The position numbers and the translations under genes were made by a program. From NCBI RefSeq assembly GCF_905120355.1, contig NZ_CAJHOB010000002.1, positions 62,001-126,000 of the forward strand: a DNA stretch of 64,000 nt, read 5' to 3'. The stretch is from Azonexus hydrophilus (GTDB lineage: Bacteria; Pseudomonadota; Gammaproteobacteria; Burkholderiales; Rhodocyclaceae). Shown one piece after another: positions 52,149 to 61,628 of this stretch. Numbering within the stretch: position 1 is the stretch's first letter; each line of letters begins with the position of its first letter. Under the pieces are notes generated by a model, which had not been told where the DNA came from, made no database searches, and worked only from the letters and a program-made list of their open reading frames with translations.

Positions 52149-53240
52149 CTACATGCTGGCGCGGGTATAGCTGATCATCGCCTCGGGGATGCGGCTGAGC
52201 GGCATGATTTCGTCCGCTGCGCCCAGCTTGATCGCCTCGCGCGGCATCCCGAACACGACACAGCTGGCTTCGTCCTGGGCGATGGTGCGGGCGCCGGCAT
52301 CATGTAATTCCTTCAGACCGCGGGCACCGTCGTCGCCCATGCCGGTCATGATGATGCCCAGGGCGTTGCTGCCGGCAAATTTGGCGACTGAGCGAAAGAG
52401 CACGTCCACCGAGGGCTTGTGGCGGTTGATGAGCGGACCATCGGTGACTTCCACGATGTATTGCGCGCCGCTGCGCTTGAGCAGCATGTGTCGGCCCCCC
52501 GGGGCGATCAGGGCGCGCCCTGGTACCACACGGTCGCCGTCGCGCGCCTCGCGGACTTCGATCTCGCACAGGCTGTTGAGTCGTTCGGCAAACATGGCGG
52601 TGAACTTCTCCGGCATGTGTTGCACGATGACGATGCCCAGACAGGTGGCGGGCAGGCGGGTGAGGACGGTTTCCAGTGCCTGTGTGCCGCCGGTCGAGGT
52701 GCCGATGGCGATCAGTTGATCGGTCGTGCGGGCCATGGCGCCCGGGGTGCCCGGCGCGAGCATGGCGTCCACGCTGATTTTCGGGCGGTGCTGCGGCGCG
52801 CTGGCGGCTGCCTGGGCGCGGGGCAGGGCGCGCAGGTTGGCGCGGGCAGCGGTGCGCACGGCTTGGACGATGTCGTTGGCTGAATCCTCCAGGAAGCCCT
52901 TGAGGCCGGCCTTGGGTTTGGTGATGATGGTCACGGCGCCAGCCGCCATGGCATCGAAGGTGGCCTGGGCTCCGGTTTCAGCCAGCGAGGAGCAGATGAT
53001 GACCGGGGTCGGGCGTTCGCTCATGACCTTGCGCAGAAAGGAAATGCCGTCCATGCGCGGCATTTCGATGTCGAGAACGATGACATCGGGCCAGGCGGCG
53101 CGCAGCTTGTCGATGGCGAAGACAGGATCGGAGGCGGTGGCGATGACCTCGATGCCCGCATCGCGGGAGAGCGCCTTGGAAACCACCTGGCGCACGAGGG
53201 CCGAGTCGTCCACGATCATGACCTTGATCTTGCTTGTCAT
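52149..53240 (-). CDS. cheB: CheB, chemoreceptor glutamate methylesterase/deamidase
   Basis: This 363-residue response-regulator enzyme removes receptor methyl groups after phosphorylation by CheA. The receiver domain (about 5-125) has D11-D12 and the acceptor D57 in [13 protein letters not shown]. The methylesterase domain (about 172-360) has the catalytic Ser182 in AIGTSTGG, His208 in VQHMPEKF and Asp304 in MTGMGDDG. All catalytic residues are present. It lies 2 bp after cheR and is the last che gene of the operon. Confidence 0.97.
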
Positions 53241-53242
53241 GC

Positions 53243-54052
53243 TTATTCCTTGCGATAAATGGTGGGACTGACCTGGCGGAGGCTGGAGACGATGCCGTTC
53301 AGCGTTTCCGAATGGCCAATGATGAAATGTCCGCCTGGCCGCAGGTGGGGAAGAAGATGCGAAACCACCCGGCGCTTGGTGTCATTGTCGAAGTAAATCA
53401 TGACGTTGCGCAGGAAAATGACGTCGAACAGGCCGACGTCGGCGGTGACTGGCTGAGTCAGGTTCACCTGCAGGAAATTCACGCGTGCCCGCAACTCGGC
53501 GTTGATCAGGAAGGTGCCTTCCTGGCTACGCACGCCCTTGCGGCAGAATTTGCTCAGGAAAGGACGCGGGATACCGTCGATGCGGGTCATCGGGTAATGC
53601 CCCTGGCGGGCCTTGTCGAGAACCTGGGTGCTGATGTCCGAGCCCACGATCTCCCATGCCTTGCTGGCGAGCGTGTCGGCCAGCACCATGGCGATGGTGT
53701 AGGCTTCCTCGCCGCTCGAACTGGCGGCACTCCACACCCGGAACGGTCGTTCGCCGCGCCAGCCGCGCAGGATGTGCTGACGCAGGAAGTCAAAATGCTT
53801 GGGTTCGCGGAAAAAGTAGGTTTCGTTGGTGGTGAGCAGGTCAACCATGACCTGCAGTTCCTCCGGATGTTCGCCATTGGCGAGCATCCGGTAGTACTGG
53901 CTGTAGCTGTCCAACTGGTAATGGCGCAGGCGTTTTTGCAGGCGGCCGACGAGGAGGACTTTTTTGCTGTCGCTCAGACTGATGCCGGCGATCTTGTAAA
54001 TGAGTCGCTGGAAAAGGGCGAATTCCTGATCGCTGATTGCGCTTTCGCTCAT
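53243..54052 (-). CDS. cheR: CheR, chemoreceptor methyltransferase
   Basis: This 269-residue SAM-dependent methyltransferase adds methyl groups to receptor glutamates. The N-terminal helical domain ([20 protein letters not shown]) precedes a Rossmann domain with the SAM site in [18 protein letters not shown] and [24 protein letters not shown] is the family signature. No TPR tail is present. It shares one base with the cheD stop (TGATG). Substrate receptors are probably the two MCPs of this operon. Confidence 0.96.
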
Positions 54053-54648
54053 CAGAACAGCTCGATTTTCTTGCTGATGCTGGCCGCGCGACTGGCCTGA
54101 AAGTCAGCATAGGCCTGTTCTTCCCGGCGCATGGTTTCCTGGCTGACCAAGCGGGAAGTGACTCGCTTGCAGTAGGCGTCACCGGTGGCAGGTACAAACA
54201 GGATCTTGCGTGACCATGGGCCGAGGAAATCCGATGCCACGATGGGTATTCCTTCCTGATCAAGCCACTGGTGCGCAAAGTCGACGTTACGCTTGCCGAC
54301 GTTGAGCGCGCCAGGAACGGTTGTATCGATGACCGCCCCACCGCCAAAGGCTTTGGCGCACAAGCGATGCTTGGTCGCGCCGCGTGCCAGCATGCCGTTA
54401 TAGAGGGCGGTCATGCTGGCATCACCGGCCAGCAGGCTGTCTTCGTCAATTTTCGTGCTTTTCATCTTGGGCAGCATGAAGTGATTCATGCCGGCTAGGC
54501 GCAAGACGGGGTCATAGAGACAGACTGCAACGCAAGAGCCCAGCAGTGTGGAAATTGGTCGCTCAGCCTCCACTACCCATTCGCCGGGGCGGATGTTGCG
54601 GGACATGCGTTCAATTTCATTCGTCGGCAAGGCCGCGTAGTCGATCAT
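54052..54648 (-). CDS. cheD: CheD, receptor glutamine deamidase
   Basis: This 198-residue CheD deamidates specific receptor glutamines and in some systems binds CheC or CheY. The catalytic Cys and His are in LGSCVAVCLYDPVLRLAGMN (residues 38-57, with His58 next), and the Thr/Gly segment is AFGGGAVID. About 25 residues beyond the core end in SKKIELF, a tail shared with the operon's first receptor (see findings). It lies between cheW and cheR. No cheC is present in the window. Confidence 0.95.
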   Translation of the reverse strand: MIDYAALPTNEIERMSRNIRPGEWVVEAERPISTLLGSCVAVCLYDPVLRLAGMNHFMLPKMKSTKIDEDSLLAGDASMTALYNGMLARGATKHRLCAKAFGGGAVIDTTVPGALNVGKRNVDFAHQWLDQEGIPIVASDFLGPWSRKILFVPATGDAYCKRVTSRLVSQETMRREEQAYADFQASRAASISKKIELF

Positions 54649-54670: not shown

Positions 54671-55219
54671 TCAGGTTGTTTCGATCGGGTTGCTTTCGGC
54701 GACCTGCGTCAGCATGGAAATTTCCTCCACCGAGAGGACCCGGCCCACGTCAAGAATGATGACGAAACGGCCATTCACTTTGCCCATTCCGGAGATGAAG
54801 TCGGTGCGGATCTTGGCGCCGAAAGCGGGCGGCGGCTCGATCTCGCTGCGTGCAATTTCGAGTACTTCGGATACGGCATCGACCATGACGCCAATATCGT
54901 GCTTTTGCTCGTCCTGCTCCAGTTCGATGATGATGATGCAGGTCCGCCGCGCCACGCTGGTCGATTTGCCACCAAAACGGCAGGACAGATCTATGACCGG
55001 CACCACGGCGCCGCGCAGGTTGATCACGCCACGAATGAAGGGGGGCATCATGGGAATCTCGGTGACGCTGCCGTACTCGATGATTTCCTTGACGTTGAGG
55101 ATGGCGACAGCAAACATCTCGCCGCCCAGGGTGAAGGTCAGATATTGCTGCGGGGCATTGTCGGTTGCGACAAGTACCCCGCCCCGGGCGGGCCCGGGGG
55201 TGGGGACTAGCTGGCTCAT
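54671..55219 (-). CDS. cheW: CheW coupling protein
   Basis: This 182-residue adaptor links receptors to CheA. It shows the CheW core YLTFTLGGEMFAVAILNVKEI (about 24-44), PPFIRGVINLRGAVVPVIDLS, DIGVMVDAVSEVLEI and the C-terminal IRTDFISGMGKVN...FVIILDVGRVLS. The N-terminal 20 residues are Pro/Gly-rich and variable. It lies between the poly-HAMP receptor gene (13 bp) and cheD (22 bp). Confidence 0.96.
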   Translation of the reverse strand: MSQLVPTPGPARGGVLVATDNAPQQYLTFTLGGEMFAVAILNVKEIIEYGSVTEIPMMPPFIRGVINLRGAVVPVIDLSCRFGGKSTSVARRTCIIIIELEQDEQKHDIGVMVDAVSEVLEIARSEIEPPPAFGAKIRTDFISGMGKVNGRFVIILDVGRVLSVEEISMLTQVAESNPIETT

Positions 55220-55232
55220 CGTCCGTCTCCGC

Positions 55233-57410
55233 TCAGAATTTCTCGAAATCCGTGTCGTCGATCAGCGAGGCTACCGAGCGTGCAGGGGCACGGGCCGGTG
55301 TGCTGGATTGACGCGGGGGGGTGGCGCGAGCCACCGGCGAGCCGTGACTGCGACTGCCTTGTGCCCCATCGACCGAGAAGAATTCCATCAGCTGCTGCAA
55401 CTGACCCGCCTGGCCGCCCAGTTCTTCGGCGGTGGCTGCCAGTTCTTCGGAGGCAGAAGCGTTCTGCTGCGTGGCTTTGTTGAGCTGACCCATGGCACTG
55501 TTGATCTGCGCCACGCCGGTTGATTGCTCTTGACTGGCCGAGGCGATTTCCTGCACCAGGTCAGATGTCTTCTGGATGCTTGGCACCATTTCGTCGAGCA
55601 GGTTACCTGCCCGTTCTGCCATCTTGACGCTGGACCCGGCCAGTTCGCCAATTTCCTGCGCCGCCACCTGGCTGCGTTCAGCAAGTTTGCGCACTTCTGC
55701 GGCAACTACGGCGAAGCCCTTGCCGTGTTCGCCAGCACGAGCGGCTTCGATGGCTGCGTTCAGCGCCAGCAGGTTGGTCTGATAGGCAATATCGTCGATG
55801 ATGCCGATTTTGTCGGCAATCGACTTCATCGCGTCGACCGTCTTGCCAACGGCCTCACCGCCTTCACCGGCTTCCTTGGCCGACTTGGTGGCCATGTTGT
55901 CGGTGATCTTGGCATTTTCGGTGTTCTGGTTGACCGAGGCTGTCATCTGTTCCAGGCTGGCAGTGGTTTCTTCCACGCTGGCAGCTTGTTCCGATGATGC
56001 CTGGCTCAGCGACTGAGCCGTGGCAGAAACCTGGCCGGAGGCGTTGGACAGTGCATCGGCGGCCGTGATGATCTGCGCAATCGTTTCCGACAGCTTGCCG
56101 ATGGTGTCGTTGATGGCGTCCTTGAGGACTGCAAAGTCCCCTTGGTAGGCCTGGGTGATGGTCTGTGTCATATCGCCTTGCGACATGGCCCCCATGACGC
56201 GCTGAACGTCCTGGATTGGCGAAACGACTGCGTCAAGAGTCTCATTGACGTCCTCGACGATGCGGCGGAAGTCCCCTTGGTGCTGGGCTGTATCAGCGCG
56301 GGTTTCGAGCTTGCCGGCTACAGCGGCGGCGCTCAGCATGTTGGCGTCTTCAACCAGCTTATTGACGGCGGTGATACAGGTGTTGAGGTTGTTCTTGATG
56401 GTGTTGAAATCACCGTTGTAGGTATCGGTGATTTTTTCAGGGATGTCGCCCTTGGAGATGCGGTCGACGTAGTTGGCGGCGACGTTCAAGGGGCCGATCA
56501 CGGCGTCGAGGGTCTCATTGACGCCTTCGACGACACGGCGGAAGTCGCCCTGATGCTGGGTGGCGTCAGCTCGGGTGGCGAGGCGGCCTTCGATGGCAGC
56601 AGTACTCAGGGTGTTGGCGTCAGCAATGAGTGCTTGTATCGATGCCTGGGCAGCAGTCACCGAACGCATGACTTCAGCGACTTCATCCTTGGCGGTGCTT
56701 TTCAGTTCGAAATTCATGTCGCCGGCAGCCATCTTGCGGACGGCATCGACCACCTGGTTGATCGGGCGGGTCAGGCTGCGCGTGATGAGGGTGGCGAACA
56801 GCAGGGCGAGGAGAATGGCTGCAGCGGACAGCGTGAGCACCAGAGTGCGTGCCGACTGTGCTTGTTCAACGGAGGCGGCGCCATTTTTTGCAGTGAGTTC
56901 AGTGAGATACTTGATGAGCTCATCGACCGATGCAACATAGGCATTCTGCTGGCGGCGGATCTCGGTTAGCATGAATTCGGTAGCATCGTCGCGTCGGCCA
57001 GCCTTGACCATTTCAATGAATTTTTCCTGGGCTGGTACGTAGGCGGTGCGGGCGTCGATCAGCTTTTGCAGCATGGCGCGGCCTTCGGCCGTATTGAAGG
57101 TTGTGCTCATCTGGTCGATGCGCTCACCAATGATCTTGCGGGCAGCGACGAGCCGGGTGAACTCCTGCTCGACTTCTTCCGGTGTCTTGACCAGTAGGGA
57201 GTTGCGCATGGTGCGGGCGATGATGTTGAGAGAGTCGATAATATCGTTGGCGGCTGTCAGTTTGGGCAGGCGGTCATTCACCACCAGTTCGATGTCGTCA
57301 CTCAGCGCCTGGAAGCGCATCACGCTGAGAACAGCAATGACGATCAGCAGGATCAATGTGATGGCAAAACCCAATGCAAGCTTGGTTCCGACTTTTAAAT
57401 TGTTTAGCAC
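55233..57410 (-). CDS. Methyl-accepting chemotaxis protein with extra HAMP-like repeats
   Basis: This 725-residue receptor has TM1 about 11-30, a periplasmic four-helix-bundle domain about 31-188 and TM2 about 189-211. A HAMP domain follows (about 212-262), then two 91-residue tandem HAMP-like units beginning at [10 protein letters not shown] (263) and [10 protein letters not shown] (354). The signalling hairpin has tip [20 protein letters not shown] near 541-560. A Gln/Pro-rich linker ends in DDTDFEKF, where the last five residues fit the aromatic-x-x-aromatic tether for CheR/CheB. The gene is intact, between cheA and cheW. Ligand is unknown. Confidence 0.93.
56076..56621 (-). repeat. Tandem 273-bp coding repeat (HAMP-like units)
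   Basis: Residues 264-354 and 355-445 of the receptor are tandem copies. [21 protein letters not shown] in the first matches [21 protein letters not shown] in the second, and [15 protein letters not shown] matches [15 protein letters not shown]. The offset is exactly 91 residues (273 bp). This indicates an internal duplication that lengthened the signalling stalk. Confidence 0.85.
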
Positions 57411-57468: not shown

Positions 57469-59643
57469 CTAGGCTCCCTGGCGGGGAGCCGCCAGGCTGC
57501 TGTTCATGTCACGTTCTTCGCGTCGGTTGTTGCGTTGAACCAGGGATTGCACATCCAGGATGAGGGAAACCTCGCCGGTGCCCAGGATGGTCGAGCCGCC
57601 TATGCCGCGCAAGTGCCGGAAGATACCGGAGAGTGGTTTGATCACCGTCTGGAATTCACCATGCAGCTGATCCACCACGATACCTGCTTTTTGCCCGGCA
57701 AATTGCACGACGACAATGTTTTCGCGTGCAGGATATTCATCCTCGATCTCGAACATCTCACGCAGGCGTACAAAGGGAAGCACTTCGCCGCGCAGATTGA
57801 GGAAGTTGCGATCGTTCGATTGTCCATTGAGTTCGATGCACTCGATCACCATGTCTAGCGGAATGACGTAAGAGGCTTTGCCGACGCCGACCAGGAAGCC
57901 ATCGATGATGGCCAGTGTCAGCGGCAAGCGGATGGTGAAGGTGCAGCCCTGGCCTTCGACCGAGGATACTTCGCAGCTGCCGCGCAGGCTCTGGATGTTA
58001 CGGCGGACCACGTCCATGCCGACGCCACGCCCGGACAGGTTGGTGACCTGTTCGACGGTGGAGAAGCCGGGTTCCCAGATCAGGTTGATGATTTCCTGAT
58101 CGGTCAGCGTCTGGGTTGGCTGCACCAGCCCCTTGTCGATGGCTTTCTGCAGGATCTTGTCGCGGGGTAGACCTCGGCCATCGTCTACGACCTCGATGAC
58201 GATGCTGCCGGAGTCGTGGTAAGCATTCAATTCCACCCGGCCGCGCCGCGACTTGCCCGCCGCTTCGCGGGCGTCACCGGCTTCAATGCCGTGATCCATG
58301 CTGTTGCGCACCAGGTGCATGAGCGGATCGCCGATCTTTTCCACCACCGACTTGTCGAGCTCGGTTTCGGCGCCCGAGATGACGAGATCGATTTCCTTGC
58401 CCAGCTCTTTGGACACATCGCGTACGACGCGGTTGAAGCGGGTGAAGGTTTCGCCGATCTGTACCATGCGCAATTGCAGGGCGGCATCGCGGATGTTTTC
58501 GACCAGGCGGGAGAGGATGGAAGTCGACTCCACCAGCTCGCCCTGGCCGCTGCGCTGCGCCAGCAGGTTGGCGGAAGCGCCGGCGATGACGAGTTCGCCG
58601 ACCAGATCGATGAGCTGATCGAGTTTGTCGGCCTGGACGCGGATGGAGCGGGCTTCGACCGCTTTCTTTTCCTGGACGCGGGTCTGTTTGCTGGCGGCGG
58701 CTTCGACGACTTCCTTCTGCACCACCTTCTGTTCGATGAGGATTTCACCGATCGGCGAAGTAGGTTCGTCACTGGTGCCGCTTTGCTGTGACGACAGGCC
58801 GTCGTCGAGTTCGTGCTGGGTCAGCGCGCCGCAGCGGACCAGCATTTCACCCAGACGCATTTCGTCTTCCGGCAGTTCCTGGATCAGTTTCAGGTATTCG
58901 GTGAGTTTGCTGTTGGGCGGCAGGATGCGTAGTTCGCAATCGTCACGGCAGAAATCGAAGACGCGTTCAATGTCGGCTTTGGTGGCGCGGGTCTGCAAAC
59001 GGATTTCGAAGCCGAGGTAGCAGGCCTCCGGGTCCATCTCGTCAGCGGCTGGCAGCGCATCCGGAATGGTTTCCAGTGCCAGGATCTCGCCCAGCGAGGT
59101 GAGATAGCGCAGGAAGGAGAGGGGATCCATGCCGCCGCGCAGCATGTGCGGGCCAAAACGTACGGAAATGTGCCAGCTGTCGGTGTTGACGACGCCACCA
59201 CCTGAGGTTTCCACTTCCGACTCGGCTTCCACCATGCCGCCGGCACTGGGTTCCGGTGTGACCATGTAGGCGGAGAGTTCTTCCAGCAAGGTATTGCCGG
59301 CCGCACTGACCTCGGCCGGTGGCTCAGCCTGACCTGCCTCCAGCACGTCCATGAGGCGGCCGAGATGGTCGCAGCAGCGCAGCAACAGGCCGGTGAGTTC
59401 GCTGGAAACCTGGATTTCCCCGTTGCGCAGTCGGTCGAGGACATTTTCCGCCTTGTGCGTGAAGGCCTCGATGAAATGGCATTCGATGACGCCGGAGGCG
59501 CCTTTGACCGTGTGGGCGGCGCGAAAGATGCTGTTGATGTTGTCGTGGTTGTCGGGTTGCTGCTCCAGTTGCAGCAAGCCGTCTTCCATGGCCTGCAATT
59601 GTTCGCGGCCTTCCTGGATGAAAACGCTGGTGAGTTCGTCCAT
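57469..59643 (-). CDS. cheA: CheA, chemotaxis histidine kinase
   Basis: This 724-residue kinase has an Hpt domain (about 1-105) with phospho-accepting His44 in RAAHTVKGASGV. A middle region of about 200 residues (about 155-240, ferredoxin-like, in the P2 position) follows, then the P3 dimer helices (about 340-400), the ATPase domain with N-box LVRNSMDHGIEAG and glycine boxes VDDGRGLP and GRGVGMDVVR, and a CheW-like P5 domain. It is complete and should phosphorylate the CheY at 61263-61628 and CheB. It lies between the STAS gene (9 bp) and the poly-HAMP receptor gene. Confidence 0.97.
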   Translation of the reverse strand: MDELTSVFIQEGREQLQAMEDGLLQLEQQPDNHDNINSIFRAAHTVKGASGVIECHFIEAFTHKAENVLDRLRNGEIQVSSELTGLLLRCCDHLGRLMDVLEAGQAEPPAEVSAAGNTLLEELSAYMVTPEPSAGGMVEAESEVETSGGGVVNTDSWHISVRFGPHMLRGGMDPLSFLRYLTSLGEILALETIPDALPAADEMDPEACYLGFEIRLQTRATKADIERVFDFCRDDCELRILPPNSKLTEYLKLIQELPEDEMRLGEMLVRCGALTQHELDDGLSSQQSGTSDEPTSPIGEILIEQKVVQKEVVEAAASKQTRVQEKKAVEARSIRVQADKLDQLIDLVGELVIAGASANLLAQRSGQGELVESTSILSRLVENIRDAALQLRMVQIGETFTRFNRVVRDVSKELGKEIDLVISGAETELDKSVVEKIGDPLMHLVRNSMDHGIEAGDAREAAGKSRRGRVELNAYHDSGSIVIEVVDDGRGLPRDKILQKAIDKGLVQPTQTLTDQEIINLIWEPGFSTVEQVTNLSGRGVGMDVVRRNIQSLRGSCEVSSVEGQGCTFTIRLPLTLAIIDGFLVGVGKASYVIPLDMVIECIELNGQSNDRNFLNLRGEVLPFVRLREMFEIEDEYPARENIVVVQFAGQKAGIVVDQLHGEFQTVIKPLSGIFRHLRGIGGSTILGTGEVSLILDVQSLVQRNNRREERDMNSSLAAPRQGA

Positions 59644-59652
59644 GTGCTTGCC

Positions 59653-59958
59653 TCAGGATTGTTCGCGGGCGGTAATCACCACCGGGTCGCCAAAAAAAGC
59701 GGTCAGGTTGCAGAAATCGAGCGTTTCGCGGACTGCCGGGCTGTGGGCGACGATGGCCATGGATTTCTCTTTGCGCGCAGCTTCCTGTTTGGCGAGGATG
59801 AGCAATTGCAGGCCGGCAGTATCGATTTCGCCCACTTGCGACAGGTCGAGCTCCAGCCCGCTGCCCGCGTCAAGTGCGGCAAGCAGGCGCTCCTTGTGTT
59901 CCTGGGCGTGGTAGATGGTGAGATTTTCGACCCAGTTCAGACGCTGTTTTCCGCCCAT
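59653..59958 (-). CDS. STAS-domain protein (anti-anti-sigma-like)
   Basis: This 101-residue single STAS domain has the pattern of anti-sigma-factor antagonists, with the phosphorylatable position in VGEIDTAGLQLLILAK (Thr in place of the usual Ser). The N-terminal LTIYHAQEHKERLLAALDAG fits the family's first strand and helix. A dedicated anti-sigma kinase is not nearby. In chemotaxis operons such genes recur between receptor and cheA, and their role is not settled; a scaffold or input to the pathway is possible. It lies 9 bp from both neighbours. Confidence 0.88.
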   Translation of the reverse strand: MGGKQRLNWVENLTIYHAQEHKERLLAALDAGSGLELDLSQVGEIDTAGLQLLILAKQEAARKEKSMAIVAHSPAVRETLDFCNLTAFFGDPVVITAREQS

Positions 59959-59967
59959 GGCGCCTCC

Positions 59968-61260
59968 TTAAAATAATTCAATTTTGGCCGAGCCGGTATT
60001 GGCTTGGGGCGTTTCCGTCTTGCCTACCTGACCCAGAGCGCGTTGATGGCTGGTTCGTTGTGTTTCCATGACGTACTTGTCGTACAGGTCATCGAGACGG
60101 GCGGTGAGCGGGGTGTACTGGAAATCGGGGTCATCGACCGACTTGATGCGCTGGGCCAGTGTGGCCGCGTGTTCATCGAGCTGGTTGAGCGCATTGGCGA
60201 CGATTTCGATCTGCTGCCGGGTGATGTCCTGGAATTGCACGGCAGCCATGACGTCCATGAACATCCGTGCCAGTTCGTGGCTGGTTTCGCGAACGGTGTT
60301 GAGCACGTTGAGGTCGTGCTCCAGCAGTGCCTGATAGCCGTCTCCCAGTTTGCTCAGCTGGTCGGAAAACTCGGTGAGGGCTGCCTTTTCGGCATCCACG
60401 TTACTGGTTTCGAGCTTGTCCTGGAATTGCTGGCGGATGGAATCGGTCACGTTGTTGATGCCAGCATTGATCTTGCTCACAGCGGTATCGGTTTCCGTCG
60501 AGAGTTTGCGTACTTCGTCCGCCACCACGGCGAAGCCGCGGCCGGCCTCGCCCGCCCGTGCCGCCTCGATGGCGGCATTCAGTGCCAGCAGGTTGGTCTG
60601 TCCGGAAATATCCTTGACCAGTTGCACCAGTGTGCCCAGTCCGCGCGCCTCTTCGACGATCTGGGCGATGCGCTCCTAGTCCTTGCGTGCTTCTTCGATT
60701 CGCTTGCGGATGTAGTTGCCCATCTTGCTGATCAGGGCCTGGTTGTCCTTGATTTCATGTTCCGAGTCGCTCGCCAGCTCGCTGGAAGCGGCCACGGTCT
60801 GGGTGACGAAACTGTCCAGGCGGGTGATGACGTTATCGACTGCTTGCAGGCGTTCAGTGATGTCGAACGCTGCTTTTTCGGTGGCATCGACAATGCCATC
60901 CAGCTGTTTGCGCAAAACGTCGTTGAAGCGTGAGAAATTTTCCAGTTCCCGGGCCACTTCCTCGGCCAGGGCGGTGGCGGCGGCGAATTTGCTGACGGCA
61001 CTGCTCTGCACGTTTTCCAGGCCGTAGGTCATGTCCCGGAACACGGCCAGCGATACCAGACTCAGGGCAATGCCGGTGGTAATGACGATCAGGGTCGAAC
61101 CCACGGCGTCGCCGACAGGGGAGGACAGACCGAGCTGGGGCAGGAGGCTCTCGTGAAACCAGTCGTTGAGCAGATAGACGATGAAAAAACTTCCCCCCGC
61201 AACACTCAGCAAGACCAGGGCGCTGCGTGCGAAGAGGTTGTTGATTTTGAACGGGGACAT
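59968..61260 (-). pseudogene. Chemoreceptor with CheZ-like C-terminus, interrupted by amber codon
   Basis: A single frame of 430 codons runs from ATG 61260, interrupted by TAG at codon 195 (60676-60678). Before the stop: TM1 about 12-31, a periplasmic loop of about 24 residues, TM2 about 55-75, no HAMP, and long helices. After it: the receptor tip [20 protein letters not shown], then a helix with [19 protein letters not shown] (D345 and Q349 match the catalytic Asp and Gln of CheZ) and a C-terminal KIELF. It would be a receptor-phosphatase hybrid. GTG 60627 could re-start the second half, but without a strong ribosome site. Recent mutation or sequence error is the simplest explanation. Confidence 0.85.
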
Positions 61261-61262
61261 GG

Positions 61263-61628
61263 TCAGCGCAGTACCAGCTTGATGGTATTCAGCAATTCGT
61301 CTGCCGTTGCGGGTTTGACGATCCAGCCGGAAGCGCCGGCCGCCTTGGCTTCCATTTTTTTCGATTGCTGCGATTCGGTGGTGAGGAAGAGGATGGGCAT
61401 GAATTTGTAGGCGGGCAGCTTGCGCACCTGCTTGATCAACTCGATGCCATTCATGCCGGGCATGTTGAGGTCGGTAATCAGCAGGTCGACCTTGACGCCG
61501 GCGTTGAATTTTTTCATTGCCTCTTCGCCGCTGGCCGCTTTTTCCGTGGCGTAGCCGGCTTTGCCGAGAATGTTGGAGATGCTGAGCAGAATGGTTGCGG
61601 AATCGTCGACGAGAAAAATGGTTTTCAT
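61263..61628 (-). CDS. cheY: CheY response regulator
   Basis: This 121-residue receiver is the first gene of the operon. It shows D8-D9 in FLVDDSATI, the acceptor D53 in LLITDLNMPGMNG, Thr in LFLTTESQQ and Lys in IVKPATAD. A single-domain CheY is expected to carry the signal to the flagellar motor or another output; no flagellar genes are in the window. It has a good AAGG ribosome site, an upstream sigma-70-like promoter and a 2-bp gap to the next gene. Confidence 0.96.
   Translation of the reverse strand: MKTIFLVDDSATILLSISNILGKAGYATEKAASGEEAMKKFNAGVKVDLLITDLNMPGMNGIELIKQVRKLPAYKFMPILFLTTESQQSKKMEAKAAGASGWIVKPATADELLNTIKLVLR

Follow-up and report, generated by a model that had tools for sequence, protein, structure and literature searches.

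A chemoreceptor tail remotely related to CheZ in Azonexus hydrophilus and its relatives: a predicted phosphatase module for the CheY of its own operon

A chemotaxis operon of Azonexus hydrophilus raises the question of what ends the signal of its CheY. A preliminary description of the locus held that the operon lacks cheZ, cheC and cheX, and our scan of ten operon proteins bears this out, the only CheZ match being a weak one in the receptor encoded next to cheY. The same description proposed that a phosphatase fused to this receptor fills the gap. We ask whether the receptor tail is a CheZ-type module, and which CheY it would serve. The stretch of DNA analysed, hereafter the window, comprises 64,000 nucleotides of contig NZ_CAJHOB010000002.1 (positions 62,001 to 126,000). 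From sequence comparisons we consider it probable that intact relatives of the receptor carry a predicted CheZ-type phosphatase for their own CheY, equipped with a C-terminal docking peptide. This explanation draws on the motif, its conservation, a remote sequence kinship with CheZ, the pairing of the cheY and receptor genes, and the C-terminal peptide.

The operon, its short receptor and an in-frame stop

The operon lies on the minus strand in the order cheY, receptor gene, STAS-domain gene, cheA, second MCP gene, cheW, cheD, cheR and cheB (Table 1), with the receptor ATG (61260) two bases past the stop codon of cheY. The receptor is short and has two membrane helices, read by eye. Its MCP signalling domain scores above the Pfam cut-off and identifies it as a chemoreceptor. 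Pfam scans found no sensor family over cut-off in its N-terminal piece or in the intact relative L063; sensor domains are common in chemoreceptors and not universal.

Table 1 Features of the che operon and of its tailed receptor in the window
Feature	Position	Strand	Evidence or remark
Receptor gene with CheZ-like tail	59968..61260	-	pieces 60679-61260 and 59968-60675
In-frame TAG splitting the receptor	60676..60678	-	related loci open at the same place
MCP signalling domain, post-stop part with conserved tip	60247..60624	-	PF00015, E 1.5e-24, 87.2 bits (cut-off 34.6)
Pfam CheZ match, PF04344 positions 64-152	60157..60429	-	E 7.1e-5, 23.2 bits, below cut-off 30.7
QFQDITRQ	60214..60237	-	Asp345 60226-60228 (GAC), Gln349 60214-60216 (CAG)
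Second conserved tail block, [10 protein letters not shown]	60046..60075	-	Y, V, M, Q, H invariant in tail alignments A1 and A3
KIELF C-terminal peptide, candidate docking peptide	59971..59985	-	[IV]ELF conserved in relatives
cheY of the operon	61263..61628	-	PF00072, E 6e-27
STAS-domain protein	59653..59958	-	PF13466, E 8.6e-16
cheA	57469..59643	-	Pfam scan
Second MCP, C-terminus DFEKF	55233..57410	-	Pfam scan
cheW	54671..55219	-	Pfam scan
cheD, C-terminus KIELF as in the receptor	54052..54648	-	Pfam scan
cheR	53243..54052	-	Pfam scan
cheB	52149..53240	-	Pfam scan

The C-terminal residues of the second MCP, DFEKF (55236-55250), form an end that we take to resemble the CheR/CheB pentapeptide. 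Of its 63 closest ORFs in related loci, drawn from the best 80 of at least 354 that encode relatives of the tailed receptor, 46 end in FEKF, FERF or FERY.

An in-frame TAG, missed by the preliminary description, divides the receptor into 194 and 235 residues and lies about 147 residues ahead of the CheZ-like motif. Of 99 related loci examined (83 distinct tails), every one has an uninterrupted reading frame of 172 residues or more ahead of the motif, and in 96 it extends to 310 or more. There is a serious possibility, although not the outcome we lean towards, that the gene is dead in the window strain, translation stopping at the TAG after 194 residues and the tail not being made; the stop itself speaks for this, as does the open frame at its position in all 99 related loci. 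Against it, no further stop interrupts the 235 codons that follow, and these are well conserved, the last 219 residues being 78% identical to the nearest relative; for that reason we regard the stop as recent or as a sequencing error in a draft of 59 contigs. Because a dead gene would concern only the window copy, it does not exclude the explanation offered for the family.

Motif and sequence kinship of the tail with CheZ

Relatives were gathered by scanning named genomes with the patterns QFQD[IV][TS]RQ and Y[SGD]xYVM[ED]xQR, which returned at least 354 stretches encoding relatives. The best 80 were used and are, by their titles, mostly from Rhodocyclales (Azonexus, Dechloromonas, Azoarcus, Thauera, Azospira, Rhodocyclus and others). 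Neighbours, C-terminus and motif were counted in all 80 loci; a table built by regular expressions took 74 of them, the other six (L123, L124, L128, L135, L138 and L141) failing only the hairpin pattern. Tail alignment A2 comprises 42 of the 80 loci, and A3 comprises 46 together with the window.

Past the MCP hairpin the receptor continues for 177 residues on the minus strand. Within this tail lies [19 protein letters not shown], and VQFQDITRQ (60214-60240) sets Asp345 and Gln349 in the DxxxQ pattern of CheZ, numbered from the ATG with the internal stop counted as one position; the three-residue spacing given in the preliminary description is exact. The catalytic DxxxQ pair of CheZ is present, and a protein search that used no motif pattern recovered 20 tails, every one of which retains the Asp and Gln. 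They are also kept in 33 of 33 distant profile hits, and QFQDxxRQ occurs in each of the best 80 of at least 354 loci; these two counts are not independent evidence, because the loci were partly picked by the motif and the profile itself contains it. In CheZ, AxxFQ adjoins DxxxQ, according to the accessible part of PMC7750401. The window reads AVQFQ, and across the 20 aligned tails the Ala is replaced by Ser in 16, by Thr in two and by Glu in one.

The preliminary description had judged the likeness to CheZ by eye and proposed a profile search. On the 219-residue ORF, CheZ is the top Pfam family after MCPsignal and the NCBIfam CheZ model matches at E 9.9e-6, so that a match exists by E-value, but both scores fall below the curated cut-offs (Table 1 for Pfam; 25.2 against 350 bits for NCBIfam). 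PF04344 reaches E 0.003 in the intact relative L063, gives no match at E 0.1 in the intact relative L088, and had no match in a Pfam scan of two stand-alone modules (L201 and L202, see below). Beside L063 and L088, the window copy scores favourably for CheZ, and profiles of CheZ and of the tail were therefore built and run reciprocally.

The CheZ profile was made from 30 proteins and the tail profile from 90 tails, 74 of them distinct (the set also used for hhalign and for the shuffles), and 5522 ORFs were searched at E 10. The CheZ profile matched 12 of 79 tail-bearing receptors, ten of them below E 0.1 and two, the window's own and L010, below E 1e-3, together with three of 15 other receptors that have a QF[QE]DxxxQ tail. 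It matched none of 67 ordinary MCPs and one of 5331 other ORFs, which is L123, itself such a receptor missed by the labelling. Conversely, the tail profile matched nine of the 30 CheZ (four below E 1e-3), all 15 QF[QE]D receptors, one of the 67 ordinary MCPs at E 6.5, and six further ORFs, all of them receptors missed by the labelling. Below E 6, no ordinary MCP was matched by either profile. With filters off, 58 of the 74 distinct tails (73 of 90 with duplicates) reached E 0.1 against the CheZ profile; none of the 74, nor of the 90, did so when the motif was masked, when the motif was kept and the flanks shuffled, when everything was shuffled, or when the tails were reversed. Since every such control loses the match, both the motif and its flanks carry CheZ signal.

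Whole genomes were also searched with A3, the window genome being counted in each set. Matches were found in 16 of 370 genomes of the class at E 1e-6 and in 21 of 397 genomes of the phylum at E 1e-4. Leaving the window genome aside, the phylum search gave 20 hits, two of which are CheZ scoring above the Pfam cut-off, one in genome G742 (L198/L203; 57.0 bits, and E 5.9e-5 to the tail profile) and one in genome G622 (L199; 45.7 bits, and E 8.9e-5). The remaining whole-genome matches are receptors and a few other proteins. The tail profile also matched L194 and L196, larger proteins with LQIGDITRQR and the C-terminus ALF.

Long helices look alike, and the FQD segment might instead be a structural helix, or one contacting CheD or CheA, that has grown CheZ-like. 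The sub-threshold scores would fit such a helix, as would an hhalign probability of 15.5% between the tail family and local CheZ (CheZ alignment untrimmed), in which the register is nonetheless correct, with [11 protein letters not shown] falling on DFQDLTGQVIK. So would the searches of known structures: a PDB profile search with A1 returned seven chains, four of them designed proteins and CheZ not among them, and Foldseek returned no matches for the tail model, which has a low pTM. CheZ itself forms a long dimer with a four-helix bundle; AlphaFold models of the tail alone and of the full-length protein are all-helical (pTM 0.31 and 0.32) and disagree at the motif, where the helix is broken in the former and continuous in the latter. 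We nevertheless judge a mere resemblance of helices quite improbable, given that none of the 67 ordinary MCPs matches either profile below E 6, that the masked, shuffled and reversed controls lose the CheZ match, and that the tail profile retrieves true CheZ from whole genomes. The resemblance first noted by eye has thus survived the profiles, their reciprocal use, the controls and the survey of relatives, but it stays below curated cut-offs and has no fold match. Judged from its sequence, the tail is CheZ-like and not CheZ, having the catalytic pair and lacking the curated score.

Gene neighbourhood, C-terminal peptide and other phosphatases

In those of the best 80 of at least 354 loci whose flanks suffice, the receptor is preceded by cheY in 65 of 68 and followed by the STAS gene in 72 of 75 and by cheA in 65 of 66, the misses being L072, L102 and L123. 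We sampled 60 genomes, comprising the window's own, 35 of its genus and 24 of its order. The receptor is present in the window genome, in 18 of the 35 congeners and in one other genome (G036), and a CheY of at least 84% identity is present in the window genome and in exactly the same 18 congeners; in G036, no CheY was found within the E limit of the search, 1e-40. The receptor belongs to its own operon and its own CheY.

The pattern [IV]ELF, which was not used in any search, ends all 80 receptor ORFs (best 80 of at least 354) and 19 of 19 receptors from the congeneric set and G036. The 81 loci surveyed, the best 80 of at least 354 among them, contain 4429 ORFs; 101 of these end in such a peptide, namely 80 receptors, 20 CheD and one other. 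A related peptide, [IVL]x[LF]F, ends 29 of the 33 distant hits. The CheD of the window ends in KIELF (54055-54069) and that of the flagellar cluster (L003, 14078-14815) in VELFI. All 30 CheZ fetched end in [DE]LLxSLGF, and the CheZ L199, from another lineage, ends in DIDKLFG. The C-terminus of CheZ binds CheY (Blat and Eisenbach 1996, as reported in the accessible part of PMC7750401), and by analogy [IV]ELF may serve for docking in a similar way. Because CheD carries the same peptide, [IV]ELF need not bind CheY, and its partner could be another protein.

Both the peptide and the cheY pairing would fit binding alone, with the tail holding phospho-CheY without hydrolysing it, either to retain CheY at the array, as an anchor or sink, or to allow feedback from CheY-P on the receptor; CheD, which is no phosphatase, carries the same peptide. 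We think such a role unlikely, as it would not need the Asp and Gln that all 20 tails gathered without the motif pattern retain.

CheC, CheX and FliY phosphatases catalyse the same reaction as CheZ with an unrelated fold. No CheC was found in the window genome. A dedicated cheZ, which the preliminary description had marked as something to look for, is present in the flagellar cluster, where it adjoins another cheY, a cheA and two CheW-receiver genes by Pfam, and flhB, flhA and flhF by eye. The genome also encodes a CheX-like protein (L212, 1204-1932) that scores over the CheX cut-off and ends in DELLKSLGM, a CheZ-like C-terminus; the 3.2-kb stretch examined around it has no che gene. We rejected its assignment as a plain CheX, its best Pfam family being DUF3334 and CheX only the second. 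Loss of all other phosphatases is ruled out by these two genes, and because of them the proposed filling of a gap can hold for this operon only. The preliminary description also proposed counting genomes in which the receptor gene occurs without cheZ. Of the 20 genomes with the receptor, 19 have a CheZ over cut-off, and the one that does not (G012) is 85% complete. Hence CheZ is not supplanted by the receptor in the cell.

It might be the dedicated CheZ or the CheX-like protein that dephosphorylates the CheY of this operon, leaving the tail with another role, and the presence of both genes agrees with this, as does the co-occurrence with CheZ in 19 of 20 genomes. Yet this CheZ adjoins another cheY, the CheX-like gene has no che neighbours in the 3.2-kb stretch examined and belongs best to DUF3334, and CheZ was found within the flanking DNA in none of the best 80 of at least 354 related loci. 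We consider that division of labour rather unlikely and retain a receptor-borne phosphatase as the probable explanation.

The tail module moves, for it stands alone in two other genomes. In L202 it is a protein of 157 aa whose che operon also has cheY, cheA and a ParA-like gene; in L201 it is a protein of 176 aa on a contig of 3.8 kb that carries part of cheA as well. Searches of plasmids found no stand-alone module, and with the window tail they found two records of one Methylosinus plasmid, annotated as MCP. Other short receptors of the same genus have variant tails, MQFEDIVTQ...DIELF and LQFQDRVGQ...ITFF. Short receptors with LQFQDR or MQFQDR and an ITFF tail stand upstream of a second cheA in L213 (4865-8936), L214 (4692-8962) and L216 (9218-13388), the second cheA of these paralogous operons showing 53-59% identity. 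The short receptor adjoins cheY in L213 and L215 (the L215 stretch has no cheA match), and in L213 it also adjoins cheA. In the distant che operons of L202 (9429-10491) and L208 (8539-9548), a ParA-like gene and a small gene lie between cheA and the tail module or receptor; the small gene has a sub-threshold STAS match in L202 and no Pfam match in L208.

Predicted function and comparison with known systems

We propose that the intact relatives are membrane-anchored, chemoreceptor-like proteins whose C-terminal tail would act as a CheZ-type phosphatase module. The MCP hairpin would seat the receptor in the CheA/CheW array of its own operon, and [IV]ELF, borne on a flexible linker, would capture phospho-CheY in the manner of the CheZ C-terminal peptide. 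Next, the FQD helix would present Gln349, with Asp345, to the active site of CheY and so speed hydrolysis of the aspartyl-phosphate. Signalling by the CheY whose gene lies immediately upstream would thereby be terminated at the array itself. If this is true, the onset of the signal, through kinase control, and its end, through CheY dephosphorylation, would reside in one array protein dedicated to one CheY. This would help to explain how a cell that runs several chemosensory systems avoids mixing up their CheYs, and receptors annotated so far only as methyl-accepting chemotaxis proteins would gain a function.

In Bacillus, the CheC-CheD loop is a feedback from CheY-P to receptor modification. 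A bolder conjecture, which we regard as unlikely, is that the proteins described here belong to a large class, so far undescribed, that comprises chemoreceptors and stand-alone che-operon proteins of proteobacteria with a CheZ-type module and an [IV]xLF end. With the same peptide on CheD, one docking site, probably on CheY-P, would be contested by CheD and the receptor phosphatase, and a feedback to receptor modification like that of CheC-CheD would arise in proteobacteria that have no CheC. Among the matches listed from titles and abstract starts of open-licence PMC papers, we found none describing a chemoreceptor with a tail of this kind, and this is weak evidence that no such description exists; the motif strings and the CheD tail had no match in open-licence PMC papers.

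Compared with CheZ (PF04344; PDB 1KMI), the tail differs in being fused to a receptor, in giving no full-length match, in having Arg rather than the Gly of local CheZ ahead of the catalytic Gln, in ending in [IV]ELF where CheZ ends in SLGF, and in that its relatives do not keep the Ala of AxxFQ. It shares with CheZ the DxxxQ pair (FQDITRQ in the tail, FQDLTGQ in CheZ), a linker followed by a hydrophobic C-terminus, and the remote profile kinship. By analogy, precedents exist for parts of the arrangement in two proteins, CheT of Sinorhizobium meliloti, reportedly that of Agbekudzi et al. 2024, and CheA3 of Rhodobacter sphaeroides. CheT, likened to the tail by description only, differs in being a stand-alone, alphaproteobacterial protein. 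In the accessible parts of PMC12654446 and PMC8429497 it is described as a protein outside known families that has DxxxQ, as the tail does, and a CheZ-like predicted structure, that prefers one CheY, as predicted for the tail, and that is coded in a che cluster which, like the present operon, includes cheD; it acts as a phosphatase on only one of two CheYs (PMC12654446). CheA3 is likewise compared by description only, and its host protein is a CheA rather than a receptor. According to the accessible parts of PMC2829493 and PMC2924250, it is a bifunctional kinase-phosphatase, a kinase-family protein with a phosphatase specific for CheY6, and so offers a case in which, as predicted for the receptor tail, a phosphatase for one CheY is built into a core chemotaxis protein.
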